From Bactericera cockerelli (taxonomy: Eukaryota; Arthropoda; Insecta; Hemiptera; Triozidae): a stretch of 64,000 nt of DNA. The stretch covers positions 12,298,818 through 12,362,817 of the forward strand of contig CM044960.1 in assembly GCA_024516035.1 (NCBI GenBank), given 5' to 3'. The notes under the pieces were generated by a model. It was not told where the DNA came from and searched no databases. It worked only from the letters and a program-made list of their open reading frames with translations. Shown piece after piece: positions 3,628 to 60,096 of this stretch. Position 1 is the stretch's first letter, and each line of letters opens with the position of its first letter. The position numbers were made by a program, and so were the translations under genes.

Positions 3628-3866
3628 AGAAGACTCTACAAGATTCATCTAAGTTGTGAAATACAAGTGGTGAAATAGCTGGTAGAAACAAAACAAGAAG
3701 TGGTAAAAGACCGAAGAAGCTCAAATCTTAGAGGATTACTCAAACTCTTACATTGGCAAATGACAGAAGACTCTACAAGATTCAACTAAAGTTTATTATA
3801 CAGGTGAAACAACTGGTAGGAATAAAAGAAGAAATGGTGAAGGACAGAAGAAGCTCAAACCTTGGG
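3628..3866 (+). repeat. 137-bp tandem duplication abutting the donor of exon B
   Basis: The unit starting AGAAGACTCTACAAGATTCA occurs at 3628 and again at 3765. Each copy continues with (A/G)GTGAAA.A.CTGGTAG and GAAGAAGCTCAAA. The second copy ends in exon B's donor. The matching place in the first copy (about 3718-3730) has AAGATTTGAG instead of AAG|GTTTGAG, so the decoy donor has lost its GT. A third, more decayed copy may lie at 3540-3600. Confidence 0.7.
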
Positions 3867-4172
3867 ATTCAAATCGGAGCCCTGCTGCATAAGGGACCCA
3901 ATGACGAACCAGAAGCTGTTGGACAAGGTAAACTTATTCTCTAGGACGAGGAGAGACGCAAGGTGAGCGTCCTCGTCTTCACTCTCCTCAATGTACTTCT
4001 CATACTCGCAGACAGGGCACTCTGTGGGCTCACACCACTCGTAGGGGGAGAAGCGAGCCACTATCCAGAGCGTGATGGACACAATGATGTACGCCCCGAG
4101 CAGGTACTCCCAGATCTGAATGGCGAGGGGGTTCATGAAGGAAAACAACGTGGCAGGCTTGCGCTCGGCTTT
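3861..4172 (-). CDS. iGluR alternative exon B: M1 and pore loop, Gln at the Q/R position
   Basis: This 312-bp exon (104 codons) starts [20 protein letters not shown] after acceptor TTCTCTTCTAG and ends ...[11 protein letters not shown] at donor GTTTGA, phase 0 at both ends. M1 is [20 protein letters not shown], followed by RFSPYEW and pore helix [14 protein letters not shown]. The Q/R position is Gln encoded by CAG, so it could also be edited. The M1-pore loop is 18 residues longer than in exon A and contains CPVC and the acidic run [14 protein letters not shown]. The donor is weaker than that of exon A. No S1 exon separates A from B, so B is read as an alternative exon of the same gene rather than a second gene. 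Confidence 0.91.
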
Positions 4173-7123
4173 CTAGAAGAGAAGCAGACATGTGGATTAA
4201 AAAAAAATATTTCAAGTACATTTTTCATTTATTTTATTTTGAAGTTGAGTGATTTACAGTCCTCTTGAATCCAATCTTGACAGCCACAAAAAATAGACGC
4301 TTGTCGTCTTCAATACAGCATGTCCTCCTTTCGGACGGTTCAGAAGGGACACAAAATTTCTCATTTTAGGTAATGGGTCATCATGAGAGCACCAAAATTT
4401 ATCCTTTACAAATATGAATAAACAATTCTGTCGTGTCTAGGTTTTGGGATTATCAGCATGACAGGAAAGCTCTCTGTACTTGTACCATACCAGTATTTGT
4501 CTGGGGATTTAATTAACTTTACGTCCATTTCCAATAAATATCATGTAAAATGTTACATACATCCAGAGTATAATAAGTATTTCAAGGAAAGGTAATTGAT
4601 AAAAACGAGGTTGGCTTCAGGCGATAAGAGGAAGAAAAAATATCAACGGTCAAGGCTCACGATGCTGAAGTAGAGTCCGATGTATACCCATGTTTCTTGA
4701 AGGTGAAAGAAATTGCTGGTCGGGGGATCCTGCGGCTGTTTTCATTTAACATAGAAAATATTGTGTGAGGTTTACCTTTGAAGAAAAAAATACACGCAAT
4801 ACTGCACTAAAAGAGAAAAATGGAACAAAGCAATCGAGTACAGAGGACTGAAATTGAAATATTTAGAACACCAGACGGTGTATTATGACGATAATTTGAA
4901 TAGAAAATAATAAAGATATGCTCTGATTACGAGATTTTCATCAAGTAAACAACAATTTACGTATTTCATAATGAAAAACATAATTTGGAGCAACAAGAAT
5001 GACAAAATTAGAGAGCGCTATAAATTAGACGGTAAATGAAATGAATACTCTGCAAATTTGCACCCAACATACAATGTATGATAATAATATATAAACACTC
5101 TTGTATGCTCATGGAATGCATTTCTGTACAATGTACATTGTACATGCATAAATTATTTACCCAACGAAGTAAGACGCAGGAAAAGGAAACACATATTTCA
5201 TGAAAAACACAAACCCTGATGATATTAAGAATCTCAGCAAAACATAGTTTTACCTCAAATTATCTTACAGTCTATGTTTGTGAAATTCAAGAAACCATAA
5301 CTTATGTTAAGAAAAAACAACGTAAACCTGACATGAACATTCTAAAACGAGCTTGAATACTACATGACACACCATACATGATCACTATTTTCCAATATTT
5401 ATTCGTAGCACTGTACCAACATTATATGCGGATGTATCTATTTGTCTTCCTATTTTCAGGATTTGAGCATGCAAGTTGAATATTTGCGAGCTTTGCACAA
5501 ACCTTGTTTACCCACTTTACACGTTCCTGTTGTATGCACTTTTCCATTTTACCACACGAAGTCAATGATACTATAAACAAAATGTAAACGATGTGTTACC
5601 AATGGTAATATTTTATTCAGCATATCAAAACATCTCCTCAGGTTTGACTTTTCACATGCTTCATTTGTGACGGTCTAACAATTCTCTTGAAGTTTTAATA
5701 CTTTCAATCAAATTATTGCTAATATCATTCATTTTCTAATGATTTTTAATTTTCCTAAAATATTTTTGCTAATAATACAGGGCGCTTACTTTTTTGTAAT
5801 TTGCTCACCAGTCAATCAATCTCAAATATCGGAAGTATAGCACGGAAGTACAAGTATCACGATGCTACATAATATTTGTATAACACAATACCTATCAGCC
5901 ACTTGAAAAAATAATGATGCAACAGGAAAAGAACAAAAATAACCACACAAACAACGATGACAATCAATAGCATCAACACAAAAATCAATAATATTAACAA
6001 AAACAAGAACAACGACCATCATTACTACCAAGTACGAACACAAGTATAACAGTCCCACATTTGTTACTTCCACCAATACCTACATTGAAAATTGCAATTT
6101 TCTTTTTTCTATTCTGACATTGATTGGAATTTATGAATTAAATGGATTCAAAAACCACACACTTTTTCTCTTCTAGCTGTGGTTAAAAGTTAATCCATAA
6201 TTCATGATGCATTAATTTGTAATGTGTATTGTCAAATATGTATGTCGGTTGTACAATGTACATACATATTAGTTAAAATAATTATGATAAATTGATAAAG
6301 CATTTGAAATAGAACATGCTGTGAAAATGGAGAGATAGAAAGAAATATGCTCTTCTCTCTCCAATTTTTTACGTTCCGATTCCCTCATTTTAGTATCTTC
6401 ATTTTTTTTTAGCTGTTATCACCTATTTTTAATGTATTTTGCCCAGAAGTGGGAATTTGGAAATTGAAAATAATCTGAAATACAAGAGGGGAGGAAAAAA
6501 CAAATTGTCTAGGTACTATGTAAAAGGATATGAAAGGAAATGGAACAAAAGTGAAATCTGTTGGTAATAGCAAAACATCAGCTGGAAAAATGTTAGAAAG
6601 CATGGAATTAGGAATAGATGCATGGAAAACAAATTGAACAGAATTTTCAAATACGTATTGAAATAAGAAACGGGAACACACAAAAATAAGCGGAAACGAA
6701 GAACAATGAATCTGAGAAAGATAAAACAAGAATAAGATGAAAAAAGAAAGATAAAAGCATTGGGTTAGAAATATTGTTGTGATCTTCTGATTTGAAAGTA
6801 ACATGTGTGCTGATGTGAGCAAGAAAATTTCCAGACAACTGATTTATAAAAAATCTGCATCAATGTTGCTCGGGAACAACAACATCAATCGATGTGACAT
6901 TAGCTCACATCGATTTGTTGAAATACCTACGTATGTACGTAGATTTGCTAGTATCAATACATGTACCTACAATACAGGTACCTACTACCTAACTACGTTA
7001 TTCATTAACAAAAACAAGGTTTTCGCCAGAATATCAACATAGTACATGCATTAGTAACTGAAATTTATTTTCCTAAGGCAACGGTCGTGCTGACCCAACA
7101 CGAAGCTCCAAGCATGCAGGTAC
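4173..7123. other. Intron sequence between the two M1/pore exons; no exon supported
   Basis: This is ~2.95 kb of AT-rich sequence separating exons A and B. It has no second S1 exon, so B cannot be the pore exon of a complete separate receptor lying here. A slightly GC-richer patch at 4637-4735 is open on the minus strand but is not a convincing exon. The rest shows no coding signal or recognisable mobile element. Confidence 0.6.
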
Positions 7124-7381
7124 CTTGGGGTTGAGTCCGGAGCCCTGACGTAGGAAAGTCCCAGTGATGAACCAGAAACTGTTGCTGACTGAGAACTGGT
7201 TCTCCACGATGGGAGACTCAACGAGGCAAGGGTGCGGGTTGCTCCACTCGTACGGAGAGAACCGAGCCATCACGAAGAGCGTGAAGCTGACGAGGAGGTA
7301 GGCGGCCAGGACGTAGAGCCAAATCTCCACGGCCAGGGGGTTCATGAAGGAGAAGAGGCGAGTGGGCTGACTGGTCGGCAC
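7124..7381 (-). CDS. iGluR alternative exon A: M1 and pore loop, Arg at the Q/R position
   Basis: This 258-bp exon (86 codons) starts [20 protein letters not shown] after acceptor CCCTCTAG and ends ...FLRQGSGLNPK at donor GTACCT, phase 0 at both ends. M1 is IWLYVLAAYLLVSFTLFVMA, followed by RFSPYEW, a short cytoplasmic loop, and the pore helix NSFWFITGTFLRQG. The Arg in FLRQG (codon CGT) sits at the site called Q/R in AMPA and kainate receptors. There it normally lowers calcium permeability and polyamine block. The exon lies 530 bp after the shared S1 exon. A homologous exon follows at 3861-4172, so the two are probably used alternatively. Confidence 0.93.
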
Positions 7382-7911: not shown

Positions 7912-8016
7912 CTTGAAAAGTATTCCGATGCCCAGGTTCATGAAAGGTTTGGTAAAGTCTATGACACTCTCTCTAGCATAATTGATTGTCATGGAGGCAA
8001 CGGCTAGGTCTGCTTT
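7912..8016 (-). CDS. iGluR exon: ligand-binding lobe S1, second half with binding Arg
   Basis: This 105-bp exon (35 codons) reads [20 protein letters not shown], then [15 protein letters not shown], before a GTAAAC donor. The acceptor CATTCTCTTTCCAG is strong. It is phase 0 at both ends. The Arg in [10 protein letters not shown] is the family's ligand-carboxylate-binding residue, and FTKPFM is the conserved S1 end that leads to M1. This is the last exon shared by the two possible M1/pore exons downstream. Confidence 0.94.
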
Positions 8017-8900: not shown

Positions 8901-9104
8901 CTTGTCCATGAGTTCCTTGACGATGCCGTTCCACTCCTTGGTCTCGTGGTCATAGACCCCGTACGTGTGGTCAGGCACCAGCCGCAGCACAAAGTGGAAG
9001 CCCACCTGGGCCGCAATGCTCCTCAGTAGGTCTATGCAGAAACCTTCAAACATGGCGTTCCCTGTCAGGTTCTGGTCGTTCTTGACCATCACATAGGGCT
9101 TTTC
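8901..9104 (-). CDS. iGluR exon: ligand-binding lobe S1, first half
   Basis: This 204-bp exon (68 codons) starts EKPYVMVKNDQNLTGNAMFE and ends ...NGIVKELMDK before a GTAACT donor, phase 0 at both ends. The PYVM, F.GFCIDLLRSIA and WNG(I/M)VKELMD blocks belong to the S1 half of the glutamate-binding domain. The acceptor reads GAATTATTCCAG. It has few pyrimidines because a SINE (about 9117-9300) begins only ~12 bp upstream of it. In-frame ATGs upstream of the exon lie within the SINE and are not starts. Confidence 0.94.
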
Positions 9105-9569: not shown

Positions 9570-9773
9570 CTCTCTCGTCATCACGATGAGAGTGACGTTG
9601 TTGGTGCTGGTCTCATAGAAGGCACTTCGATCGGTGATGTTGATTCCTTCGGCCGGGGTCCAGTGGCCCACCTTCCTCAACTCCTCTCTCTTCAGTTTCA
9701 GCAGGTCCAGCTTGAAGTTGTCTCGCTTGCCCTCTTTGAATTCGATGCGGCCCGTGAGACCGCTGATGCTGAT
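9570..9773 (-). CDS. iGluR exon: end of amino-terminal domain and linker to S1
   Basis: This 204-bp exon (68 codons) starts ISISGLTGRIEFKEGKRDNF and ends ...NNVTLIVMTRE before a GTAAGA donor; the acceptor is TTTTTTTCACTTCAG. It is phase 0 at both ends. GLTGRI.F is the conserved closing strand of the amino-terminal domain, HWTPAEGINI is the linker, and TLIVMTRE is the first strand of the glutamate-binding domain. A pogo-like MITE starts about 20 bp upstream of the acceptor. Confidence 0.94.
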
Positions 9774-10523: not shown

Positions 10524-10676
10524 GGTATTGATGTAGTTGTACAAGCTCAGACCATCTCGCCAGGGAACCTCAAGATCACAGGACAAATTGGAGCTCTTGA
10601 TAACAGAACTCTTGTCTAGGAGTGCCAACCCTGCTGCTAGAACATGCACGGAATCATACATCAGGGCTGGCTCGGC
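10524..10676 (-). CDS. iGluR exon: amino-terminal domain, part 5
   Basis: This 153-bp exon (51 codons) starts AEPALMYDSVHVLAAGLALL and ends ...SLYNYINT before a GTGAGT donor; the acceptor is CCATTCCAG. It is phase 0 at both ends. ALMYDSVHV is the conserved helix near the end of the amino-terminal domain. The 3' splice site and the first part of the exon are repeated twice more in the intron just upstream (see the repeat at 10624-11110), giving decoy acceptor-like sites. Confidence 0.93.
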
Positions 10677-11110
10677 CTGGAATGGAACAACAACAATTTG
10701 GTGTGGGGAAAAGTATTAGTCCGACCCTGCTGCTAAAACATGCACGGAATCATATTTTAGCATGATATTGCCTAAGGCAATAACCCCGCCCTTTAGTTAG
10801 GACATATATTTTGTATATATTCATTTATTTTTTCTTTTAATTTTTTTTTCTTCTATTATATTGTATATTGTATTTTCATTTGTAATTATTTGTATTATTT
10901 GTCCTATTACCTAATCAAGTGTAAATAGATAAATAAATAATAAATAAATAAATCATACATCAGGGCTGGCTCGGCCTGGAATGGAACAACAATAATTTGG
11001 TGTGGGGAAAAGTATTAGTCCAACCCTGCTGCTAGAACATGCTGGAATGGAACAAAAACAATTTGGTGTAGAAAAAGTATCTGTCCAACCCTGCTGTTAG
11101 AACGTGCTTA
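10624..11110. repeat. Triplicated ~95-bp unit spanning the acceptor and start of exon 10524-10676
   Basis: The unit CCAACCCTGCTGCTAGAACA, then the ATCATACATCAGGGCTGGCT exon stretch and TGGAATGGAACAACAACAAT intron stretch, occurs in the real exon edge, then at about 10720-11025 (interrupted by an insertion at 10754-10950), then as a third copy lacking ~30 bp (about 11026-11110). The copies carry acceptor-like CCATTCCAG sites on the minus strand. Confidence 0.85.
10754..10950 (-). mobile_element. LINE 3'-end fragment inserted in a duplicated exon copy
   Basis: The insertion is flanked by AATCAT on both sides (10748-10753 and 10951-10956). On the minus strand it ends GTCCTAACTAAAGGGCGGGG, then TTATTGCCTTAGGCAAT. 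The same end lies 3' of the jockey-like LINE coding remnant at 29460-30430 (about 29270-29330). It splits one copy of the tandem exon-edge repeat and so is younger than the duplication. Confidence 0.7.
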
Positions 11111-11887: not shown

Positions 11888-13176
11888 CGTAGGTAGATCA
11901 ATAAGTACCCGTGTTTAGGGACATGTTACATCATTGGTGAAACTTGTTGATACTTGTTGATGGAACGACATCTCAAATGACCACATCCAAAGTTTGAAAC
12001 TGATTACTCTCTTAGTTTTCATTTATCGGTCACTTGAAGTTGTTGTGTTGCGTATAGTTGAGTGATATGGAAAAAGAACAGTACCGAGCAGTTATTCGAT
12101 TCCTTTTTTTGGACGGGAAAAAATGTGATGAGATAAAATTAAAGTTAGATGCTGTGCACGGGAGCTCTTCACCTTCTATGACCACTGTTCGCTTTTGGTT
12201 TAATGAATTTAAACGAGGGCGCACAAGCATTTTTGACGAGGACCGCCCAGGACGCCCAGAAGACGTGTGTACCGAGGAAGTCGTGGAAAAAGTGCATGAT
12301 ATGATTCTCAAATATCGCCGAACAAAAGTGCGTGAAGTAGCTGAGAGTGTGGGCATTTCATATGGAACTGTTTTTAAAATCCTTCATGATAAGCTGGGCA
12401 TGAGAAAACTATCGGCGCGATGGGTGCCGCGATTGCTCACAATTGACAACAAACGAATTCGTCTGAATTGTTCAAAGGCTAGTTTAGAACTCTTCAATCG
12501 CAATCCAGATGATTTTTTGCGTCGAGTTGTGACCGTTGATGAAACCTGGATACATCACTATACCCCAGAAACCAAACAGCAGTCAAAAGAATGGACTTCG
12601 GTTGGAGAATCTGCCCCAAAGAAGGCGAAATCGGTCCAATCGGCCGGAAAAGTCATGGCTACCGTTTTTTGGGATGCAAAGGGAATTATTCTTATTGACT
12701 TCTTGGAAAAAGGAAAAACAATAACTGCTGCATATTATAGTGAGTTATTGACACGATTTGATGCAAAATTGAAGGAGACACGCCCCCATTTGGCGAGAAA
12801 GAAAGTCTTGTTTCACCATGACAATGCACCAGCTCACTCATCTGGAATTGTTGCTGCTAAAATCCATCAACTTGGATACGAATTATTGCCACACCCACCT
12901 TACGCACCTGACCTAGCCCCCTGCGATTATTTTTTGTTTCCTAACTTGAAAGTTTGGCTCGGTGGAAAGAGGTTCAGCTCAAATGATGACGTCATAAGCC
13001 AGACAAAGGGCTATTTTGAGGAGTTCGAAGGGAGCTACTTTTTGGAAGGGCTAAAAAAGTGGCAGGATCGCTGGAAGAAGTGTGTAGCCTTGAAAGGAGA
13101 CTACGTCGAAAAATAGAACCCAAAAATGTAAGTATCTCGCACTCTTTTTTCAAACACGGGTACTTCTTGATCCTCG
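11888..13176 (+). mobile_element. Complete mariner transposon
   Basis: A 1,289-bp element bounded by TA dinucleotides (11886-11887 and 13177-13178). The left end CGTAGGTAGATCAATAAGTA and the right end (minus strand) CGAGGATCAAGAAGTACCCG form imperfect terminal inverted repeats sharing AGTACCCGTGTTT. It encloses one uninterrupted transposase gene in the antisense orientation to the receptor gene, inside its intron. Length, TA target duplication and DD34D transposase fit the mariner family. The few differences between its ends and the intact frame suggest recent arrival. Confidence 0.95.
12067..13116 (+). CDS. Mariner transposase (DD34D), apparently intact
   Basis: This 349-residue protein is the full length expected of mariner transposases (~345-350). 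The ATG at 12067 gives MEKEQYRAVIRFLFLDGKKC, a paired-like helix-turn-helix start. A TTG nine bases earlier is in frame but unlikely. The N-terminal half has two helix-turn-helix regions, with the linker GRP-like motif in EDRPGRPED. The catalytic domain has VTVDETWIHHYTPE (first Asp), HHDNAPAHSS (second Asp) and YAPDLAPCDYFLFP (third Asp, 34 residues between second and third). The enzyme cuts and pastes the element at TA sites in the nucleus. No stop or frameshift is seen. Confidence 0.96.
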   Translation: MEKEQYRAVIRFLFLDGKKCDEIKLKLDAVHGSSSPSMTTVRFWFNEFKRGRTSIFDEDRPGRPEDVCTEEVVEKVHDMILKYRRTKVREVAESVGISYGTVFKILHDKLGMRKLSARWVPRLLTIDNKRIRLNCSKASLELFNRNPDDFLRRVVTVDETWIHHYTPETKQQSKEWTSVGESAPKKAKSVQSAGKVMATVFWDAKGIILIDFLEKGKTITAAYYSELLTRFDAKLKETRPHLARKKVLFHHDNAPAHSSGIVAAKIHQLGYELLPHPPYAPDLAPCDYFLFPNLKVWLGGKRFSSNDDVISQTKGYFEEFEGSYFLEGLKKWQDRWKKCVALKGDYVEK

Positions 13177-16193: not shown

Positions 16194-16358
16194 CTGTATA
16201 ATTCCGCTTCGGTTAAGGATGTGGTGCCCCAGTGTCTGGTAGCGCTCCATTTGTTCCAGGAGGTTGTTGACTCTTCGGCTCTCGAGGTCCACAATGCGGA
16301 AGGCTGTCATGTTGACGCTGTTGTACTTGAAGTCCTCCAGGTCAAACGTCTCGATATC
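16194..16358 (-). CDS. iGluR exon: amino-terminal domain, part 4
   Basis: This 165-bp exon (55 codons) reads DIETFDLEDFKYNSVNMTAF and ends ...LNRSGIIQ before a GTGAGA donor; the acceptor is TCGGTTCCAG. It is phase 0 at both ends. The block FDLEDF(K/R)YNSVNMTAFR(I/L)VD is a hallmark of arthropod kainate-type subunits. NMT and NRS are potential N-glycosylation sites in the extracellular domain. The exon lies between two inverted copies of a 47-bp SINE-tail sequence (16031-16077 and 16436-16482), which could pair in the pre-mRNA. Confidence 0.92.
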
Positions 16359-49452: not shown

Positions 49453-49506
49453 AAATGAAGTGAATATGTAGTGGTATCGGTAGTCATTCATTTGAAGCTG
49501 CAACAT
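49453..49506 (-). CDS. iGluR exon: 54-bp amino-terminal-domain exon
   Basis: This exon encodes 18 codons, MLQLQMNDYRYHYIFTSF, between a GTTTCAG acceptor and a GTAAGT donor, phase 0 at both ends. The LQLQMNDYRYHYIFT wording is the kainate-receptor amino-terminal-domain segment that precedes the D(I/L)ETFDLEDF segment, which is exactly what the next exon starts with. It is isolated by a ~9 kb intron upstream and a ~33 kb intron downstream. It was too short to be noticed as an open reading frame and was found from the receptor order. An element with Helitron-type termini lies 80 bp away on the 5' side of the transcript. Confidence 0.88.
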
Positions 49507-58461: not shown

Positions 58462-58633
58462 CGCCTGAAGAAACTGACTGGATATGGGTGGTGCTGGTAT
58501 CTATGATGAGATGTAGATCTCCTTCTGTCGTATCTCCCGCAGTACTTGCCTGTAGTGTTGGGATTGGCGTGTCGAATGTACATCTCGTTTAAGCGTCGGC
58601 GGCGTTTTGACAGCTCTTGAAGTTTGAAAAGAC
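58462..58633 (-). pseudogene. iGluR exon: amino-terminal domain, part 2, with apparent frameshifts
   Basis: The exon has a good acceptor (TTTCCAG) and donor (G|GTAAGT), and its phase-1 start joins the preceding exon to give GLFKLQEL. Recognisable receptor pieces then appear in different frames: NEMYIRHANPNT in the entry frame, YRQVLREIRQKEIY one base off, and HLIIDT in the third frame. The length is 172 bp, one base short (mod 3) of what is needed to enter the next exon in phase 0. Read in the entry frame, splicing into the 54-bp exon meets TGA after six codons. The presumed missing bases fall in short homopolymers, which suggests base-calling or assembly errors. True decay of the exon is the alternative. 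Confidence 0.75.
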
Positions 58634-59844: not shown

Positions 59845-60096
59845 CATTGTCCTCTTCATACACGATGGCCACTTTGGTCCAGTTGAGGAAGCGAATCACA
59901 TCCTTGAAGGCCGCGTTGAGCAGTCTCTGAGAGGGGTACAGGTTGATGGAGAACTCCTTGCTGTTCAGTTCCAGGTCCAGACGAGACTCCATGTGCGGGA
60001 CGTCCAGAGCTTCGCAGATGGACTGGACGTGAGGACCCAAGATGGAGTCGGACGGACCGAAGAGGGCCGTGGGGCCGTGCTGCAACTGACGACATA
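59845..60096 (-). CDS. iGluR exon: amino-terminal domain, part 1
   Basis: This 252-bp exon begins two bases into a codon after a TTTCAG acceptor and reads CRQLQHGPTALFGPSDS and onward, ending ...WTKVAIVYEEDN plus one base before a GTGAGT donor. The FGPSDS block and the FLNWTKVAIVYEEDNG block are typical of the first lobe of the LIVBP-like amino-terminal domain of kainate receptors, which lies outside the cell and drives subunit assembly. It is the most 5' exon seen. The upstream exon must end with one base of a codon and was not found between 60097 and 64000. Reading is uninterrupted. Confidence 0.9.

Follow-up and report, generated by a model that had tools for sequence, protein, structure and literature searches.

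Control of an ion channel by RNA editing is classically illustrated by the glutamine/arginine (Q/R) site of glutamate receptors. The flip and flop exons of AMPA receptors are a case of mutually exclusive tandem exons, located in the ligand-binding domain. Here we describe a kainate-type glutamate receptor gene of the psyllid Bactericera cockerelli in which two adjacent homologous exons, A and B, each encode M1 and the pore loop, A with Arg and B with Gln at the Q/R site. The gene lies on the minus strand of a stretch of 64,000 nucleotides (C6:12298818-12362817 of the 565-Mb genome), referred to as the window. Positions without a prefix are counted from the first letter of the window and those with the prefix C6 are genomic.

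The psyllid pair has points in common with both systems. As described in two sources (PMC7020516, PMC3391646), ADAR editing of vertebrate GluA2, GluK1 and GluK2 acts at the same position of the pore loop and concerns the same pair of residues. Whereas editing changes one codon, the psyllid Arg is a genomic CGT in a separate exon, and M1, the M1-pore loop and the residue at position +4 change with it. Like flip and flop, exons A and B are adjacent, homologous, equal in phase and flanked by common neighbours; unlike them, they carry the pore, and proteins containing both units in series occur. The Drosophila receptors Ekar (CG9935) and CG11155 belong to the same receptor class and are candidate fly members, and Drosophila proteins with both units were found. 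The accessible portions of two papers on Drosophila kainate receptors (PMC4382183, PMC11297484) make no mention of a pore-exon pair, and neither does the available main text of a survey of metazoan glutamate receptors (PMC6307864). No description of such an Arg/Gln exon pair was found in searches of one open-access library; an earlier reading of the locus, made from the letters without database searches (the sequence-only reading), likewise knew of no described case.

Two homologous pore exons in one gene

Among the best 120 of 3101 proteins, the top relative of the gene is from Diaphorina citri, at 97% over the last S1 exon and both pore exons, and its protein relatives bear the names kainate 1 and 2. 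The S1 exon matches the Pfam family PF10613 and exons A and B match PF00060 (Lig_chan; E-values of 5.8e-18 and 1.5e-15, respectively). Solved structures matching A and B were led by GRIK2 and GRIK3, that is, by kainate and not AMPA or NMDA receptors.

Exon A (7124..7381, minus strand; 258 bases, 86 residues) has Arg (CGT) at the Q/R site and Gly at +4. Exon B (3861..4172, minus strand; 312 bases, 104 residues) has Gln (CAG) and Asp at these positions; it exceeds A by 18 residues, and its M1-pore loop contains an acidic stretch. Both exons are open and in phase 0 at each end. Exon A lies between the acceptor AACCCTCTAG (followed by GTG) and the donor GTACCT (preceded by AAG), and exon B between the acceptor CTTCTCTTCTAG (followed by AAA) and the donor GTTTGA (preceded by AAG), with an intron of 2951 bases separating the two. 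Their M1 segments differ at 11 of 38 residues (29%). Exon A is identical to the D. citri protein P0004 at 85 of 86 residues and exon B at 98 of 104. We built a profile from 69 unique pore modules, exons A and B among them, and ran it against the open frames of the window, which returned exactly A and B (5.8e-54 and 1.1e-48) with the next match at 0.98. A chance resemblance of the two exons was rejected on this search. RNA editing is ruled out as the source of Arg in exon A, since its codon is CGT in the genome.

The surroundings were mapped using tblastn, with D. citri and Lycorma proteins as queries against the window plus 40 kb on each side. This gave a single minus-strand exon chain for the gene (hereafter gene 1), containing one S1 set and one M3/S2 set and running from the ATD and S1 exons through A, B and M3 to five more exons, ending at C6:12284687. 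The common upstream partner of A and B is the last S1 exon (7912..8016, minus strand; KADLAVASM...ILFK), identical to D. citri at 35 of 35 residues. Each of the three S1 exons is present in a single copy in the window. No M3/S2 exon was found within the window; the M3 exon, which contains the SYTANLAAF motif, lies beyond it at C6:12289351-12289566 (minus strand), with an AG acceptor in phase 0. Around exon B, the searched interval contained no further S1 or M3 set.

At the level of the exons, the sequence-only reading is borne out. It had described A and B as homologous M1/pore exons behind one common S1 exon (the single S1 set found with tblastn), in phase 0 at both ends with AG/GT borders (as the border sequences show), with CGT and CAG at the Q/R site (codons read directly) and a difference of about 30% in M1, and it had taken the Q/R choice to be hard-wired in DNA, which the genomic CGT of exon A supports. 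It had also considered that a second set of S1 exons might assign 3861-4172 to another gene; the chain holds one S1 and one M3/S2 set.

Alternative use in relatives, linked residues and a second gene

Three protein searches, the first two taking the best 120 of 3101 and the best 120 of 809 proteins, yielded 259 proteins. Tallied without the window's own pieces, an Arg loop alone occurs in 76, a Gln loop alone in 116 and one unit of each type in series in 66, and the last protein has two Arg units; these counts do not represent frequencies, as many rows are isoforms of one gene and the Gln-only rows mix two genes. The protein with two Arg units, P0025 (Bombyx mandarina isoform X2), carries the same Arg unit twice in series and lacks a Gln unit, which is probably due to a duplicate in the assembly or annotation.

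Proteins with the A/B-type pair range from mayflies to flies among the insects and from shrimps to Daphnia among the crustaceans. Thus the paired exon that the sequence-only reading proposed to look for in other arthropod kainate receptor genes is present in both insects and crustaceans. Separate Arg-only and Gln-only isoforms are annotated in Athalia rosae, Diprion similis, Neodiprion pinetum and Megalopta genalis. In each of these four species the two isoforms are identical over 517 residues upstream of the exon and over more than 230 downstream, with differing tails in the sawflies; the minimum stretch of identity across the four species is given as 120 residues upstream and 91 downstream. 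Such isoforms are present in automatic annotation under 'isoform X' names; the exons are therefore already annotated. Orthologues of exon B are joined to S1 and M3 in other insects. The Arg-only proteins P0073 (1000 aa, contig of 3189 b) and P0097 (743 aa, contig of 2958 b) and the Gln protein P0178 were taken as spliced transcripts because their contigs barely exceed the coding sequence. In D. citri, P0065 is Arg-only and P0124 starts with the Gln exon, followed by M3. Use of each exon without its partner is seen in relatives only, namely the four sawfly and bee species; B. cockerelli presumably splices its own pair in the same way.

The residue comparison and the exon tree were based on a selection from the 262 sequences, consisting of the modules of 43 proteins together with exons A and B of the window and rat GRIK2. 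Six columns split 34 Arg exons from 35 Gln exons chosen across orders. The Q/R site is Arg in 34/34 of the former and Gln in 35/35 of the latter, and the +4 position is Gly in 34/34 and Asp in 35/35, respectively. Across all 328 loops, 144 are Arg/Gly, 180 Gln/Asp, one Gln/Glu and three of other kinds. The metazoan survey (PMC6307864, section 7) connects both residues with calcium permeability and polyamine block. Judging from these loops, both known determinants switch jointly. As the exon choice exchanges them together, the change is therefore beyond the reach of one edited codon. The odd loops are Gln/Leu in the ostracod P0262 (one residue shorter), Gln/Asn in Carabus P0027, Gln/Glu in P0026 and Arg/Asp in P0060 of the spider Caerostris darwini. 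The last is a predicted protein with two S1-M1-pore units, the first with Arg and Asp at +4 and the second with Gln, and represents either neighbours that were fused or a pair of a different kind.

Lycorma, Schistocerca, two termites, three beetles and a mayfly possess a second kainate receptor gene (gene 2), in which an Arg exon again precedes a Gln exon. In Lycorma, isoforms of gene 2 on contigs of the same length are Arg-only (P0205 and P0206), Gln-only (P0198) or contain both in series (P0053). Their sequence around the exon is identical, except that the S1 exon before it is absent from P0198 and differs in P0206. Psyllid gene 2 contains two S1 exons (C6:12552470-12552667 and C6:12555730-12555945) that encode one and the same portion of the ligand-binding domain, and the Lycorma isoforms P0205 and P0206 differ in which of the two they use. 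Psyllid gene 2 is located on the plus strand at C6:12530344-12572860 and has an Arg exon and a Gln exon (C6:12560931-12561224 and C6:12562173-12562439), of which the Arg exon keeps both Arg and the +4 Gly. In the psyllid genome, genes 1 and 2 are head to head on opposite strands. D. citri P0065 is closer to gene 2 in its first part (C6:12530344-12539365) and identical to the gene-1 protein P0004 over long blocks from residue 236. Because of the head-to-head arrangement, it would be an assembly chimera or a trans-splice and not a read-through. Among the 20 of 40 matching psyllid loci that were analysed, five others have a kainate-type loop, all with Gln and an acidic +4 residue, and two further loci have a loop of another type.

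In a tree of the exons, the Arg exons of both genes are separated from all Gln exons, rat GRIK2 and the spider units with 100/99 support, although the alignment has few columns and the bootstrap was not fully settled (the second identical Bombyx Arg copy was removed). As a control for circularity, the tree was rebuilt after the pore loop had been cut off and the spider Arg unit removed. The node uniting all Gln exons kept 92% support in the Shimodaira-Hasegawa-like approximate likelihood ratio test (SH-aLRT), with the four malacostracan Arg exons dropping to its base, again from few columns. These trees suggest that the Arg exon likely had a single origin. A gene tree without the pore exon, which excludes the Clastoptera gene 2 protein P0203 (its M3 was missed by the search pattern), groups insect gene 2 with Homarus, Panulirus, Daphnia pulex and an ostracod (SH-aLRT 81%), suggesting that both kainate receptor genes are probably older than crown insects and crustaceans. 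Each gene has one slow and one fast cassette, and the order is reversed between the two. Mean identity in gene 1 is 90.2% for the Arg exon (79-81 residues) and 63.1% for the Gln exon (80-176 residues), and in gene 2 it is 65.7% and 86.0%, respectively.

The sequence-only reading had proposed that the pair is old and kept by selection, which agrees with its presence across insects and crustaceans; the linked change at +4, the pair in gene 2 and the spread over both groups go beyond what it claimed. On balance, we lean towards a history in which a splice-encoded Q/R switch predates the insect-crustacean split and the Arg exon arose once, before the two kainate receptor genes parted. Both genes would have retained both cassettes, each of which fixes the charge at the Q/R site and at +4 in one step; inclusion of both exons might add a third state that is silent.

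A proposed splice choice and competing explanations

We propose, with a probability of roughly 0.8, that this is one kainate receptor gene whose tandem, homologous, in-phase pore exons are alternatives between common S1 and M3 exons and offer a choice of Arg or Gln by splicing. The last S1 exon would be spliced to either A or B. Choosing A would place Arg at the Q/R site with no acidic residue at +4 and, by analogy with edited vertebrate subunits, give a channel with little calcium passage that escapes polyamine block. Choosing B would place Gln there with Asp at +4 and give a calcium-permeable, polyamine-blocked channel. Arg would thus be encoded in DNA and selected by splicing rather than by RNA editing. 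According to PMC11188076, Drosophila muscle receptors show polyamine-type rectification and toxin block. The pyrimidine tract is 13/20 before A and 16/20 before B; the weaker tract of A would, in this one sequence, fit a regulated A and a default B. The choice itself may be regulated by cell type or stage.

If the switch is as old as suggested above, arthropods would govern calcium entry through kainate receptors by splicing and vertebrates by RNA editing. A parallel route with a DNA-fixed, splice-chosen Arg, conserved in both insects and crustaceans and present in two genes, would mean that strong selection acts on the Arg/Gln choice itself, with no tie to ADAR. Insect neurobiology would gain an unrecognised axis of calcium permeability, testable with existing Drosophila, bee and shrimp reads, and caution would be required because a cloned insect kainate receptor may represent one of two pore types only.

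Several observations weigh against the proposal. Series proteins make up 66 of the 259, and neither frame, phase nor a short intron enforces the exclusion of A-B joining. The channel properties ascribed to the A and B forms are drawn by analogy. An ATD exon of the gene (58462..58633, minus strand) can be read only piecewise across several frames against D. citri P0004, the other exons being clean; this is either a local assembly fault or decay. In psyllid gene 2, the codon for Asp at +4 is missing from the Gln exon, and the strongly diverged Arg exon shows no plain phase-0 GT donor.

One alternative is that both isoforms are made and that the Arg form serves the assembly or export of mixed receptors, not calcium permeability. 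It gains from the fact that cassettes A and B differ also in M1 and in the M1-pore loop, but in the chosen exons the acidic +4 residue, with its link to calcium permeability and polyamine block, is exchanged along with the Q/R site, and the two roles are compatible with each other. We regard this explanation as unlikely.

It is less likely still that A and B are often or normally included together. Two M1-pore units would break the usual topology, and the result would be an off-switch or a dominant-negative form instead of an Arg/Gln choice. The M3 acceptor is in phase 0 and the joins S1-A-M3, S1-B-M3 and S1-A-B-M3 are all in frame, as expected from two phase 0 exons. The series proteins include named isoforms of several Drosophila species, Halyomorpha, Lycorma and Schistocerca, and also P0203, a protein with no listed genome contig and perhaps of transcriptome origin. 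However, the query of the first search contained both exons, which ranked series proteins first, and many of these proteins are gene predictions. Arg-only and Gln-only proteins exist in number (76 and 116), including the matching isoform pairs of four species, and the diagnostic residues are kept in both loops across orders. The series isoforms may be prediction artefacts, splicing noise or a real silent form. The sequence-only reading had proposed mutually exclusive splicing, of which the alternative Arg and Gln exons of one gene stand and strict exclusion is no more than possible, given the proteins that carry both in series, an arrangement that it had itself listed as counting against its proposal. 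Because neither the reading frame nor the length of the A-B intron enforces exclusion, a regulator or an RNA structure would be needed.

That exon B is the remnant of a tandem gene copy, or a dead exon, is hardly credible and was rejected on the genome layout: B evolves faster and an ATD exon elsewhere in the gene reads broken, but within the window and 40 kb on each side no second S1 or M3 set surrounds B, which is open with intact splice borders, matches D. citri at nearly all of its residues and has orthologues spliced into the receptor in other insects.

Other exons and features of the window

The remaining exons of gene 1 in the window are all on the minus strand. Upstream of the last S1 exon are an S1 exon at 8901..9104 (EKPYVMVK...ELMDK) and an ATD/S1 exon at 9570..9773 (ISISGLTGRIEF...VMTRE), each identical to D. 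citri at 66 of 68 residues. ATD exons with borders placed by eye are located at 10524..10676 (AEPALMYDSV...YNYINT), 16194..16358 (DIETFDLEDF...NRSGIIQ) and 59845..60096 (CRQLQHGPTALFGPSD...VYEEDN). A small ATD exon (MLQLQMNDYRYHYIFTSF) was matched with tblastn at 49453..49506, with approximate borders. The first ATD exon, also found with tblastn, lies outside the window at C6:12366728-12366886 (minus strand).

The intron preceding the exon at 10524-10676 contains, at about 10690-11110 (minus strand), partial copies of that exon's acceptor and first part, as identified by eye. An open frame of 352 aa for a Mos1/mariner-type transposase (Transposase_1, 1.9e-23; HTH_48, 7.5e-9) is located inside an intron of the gene at 12058-13116 on the plus strand.
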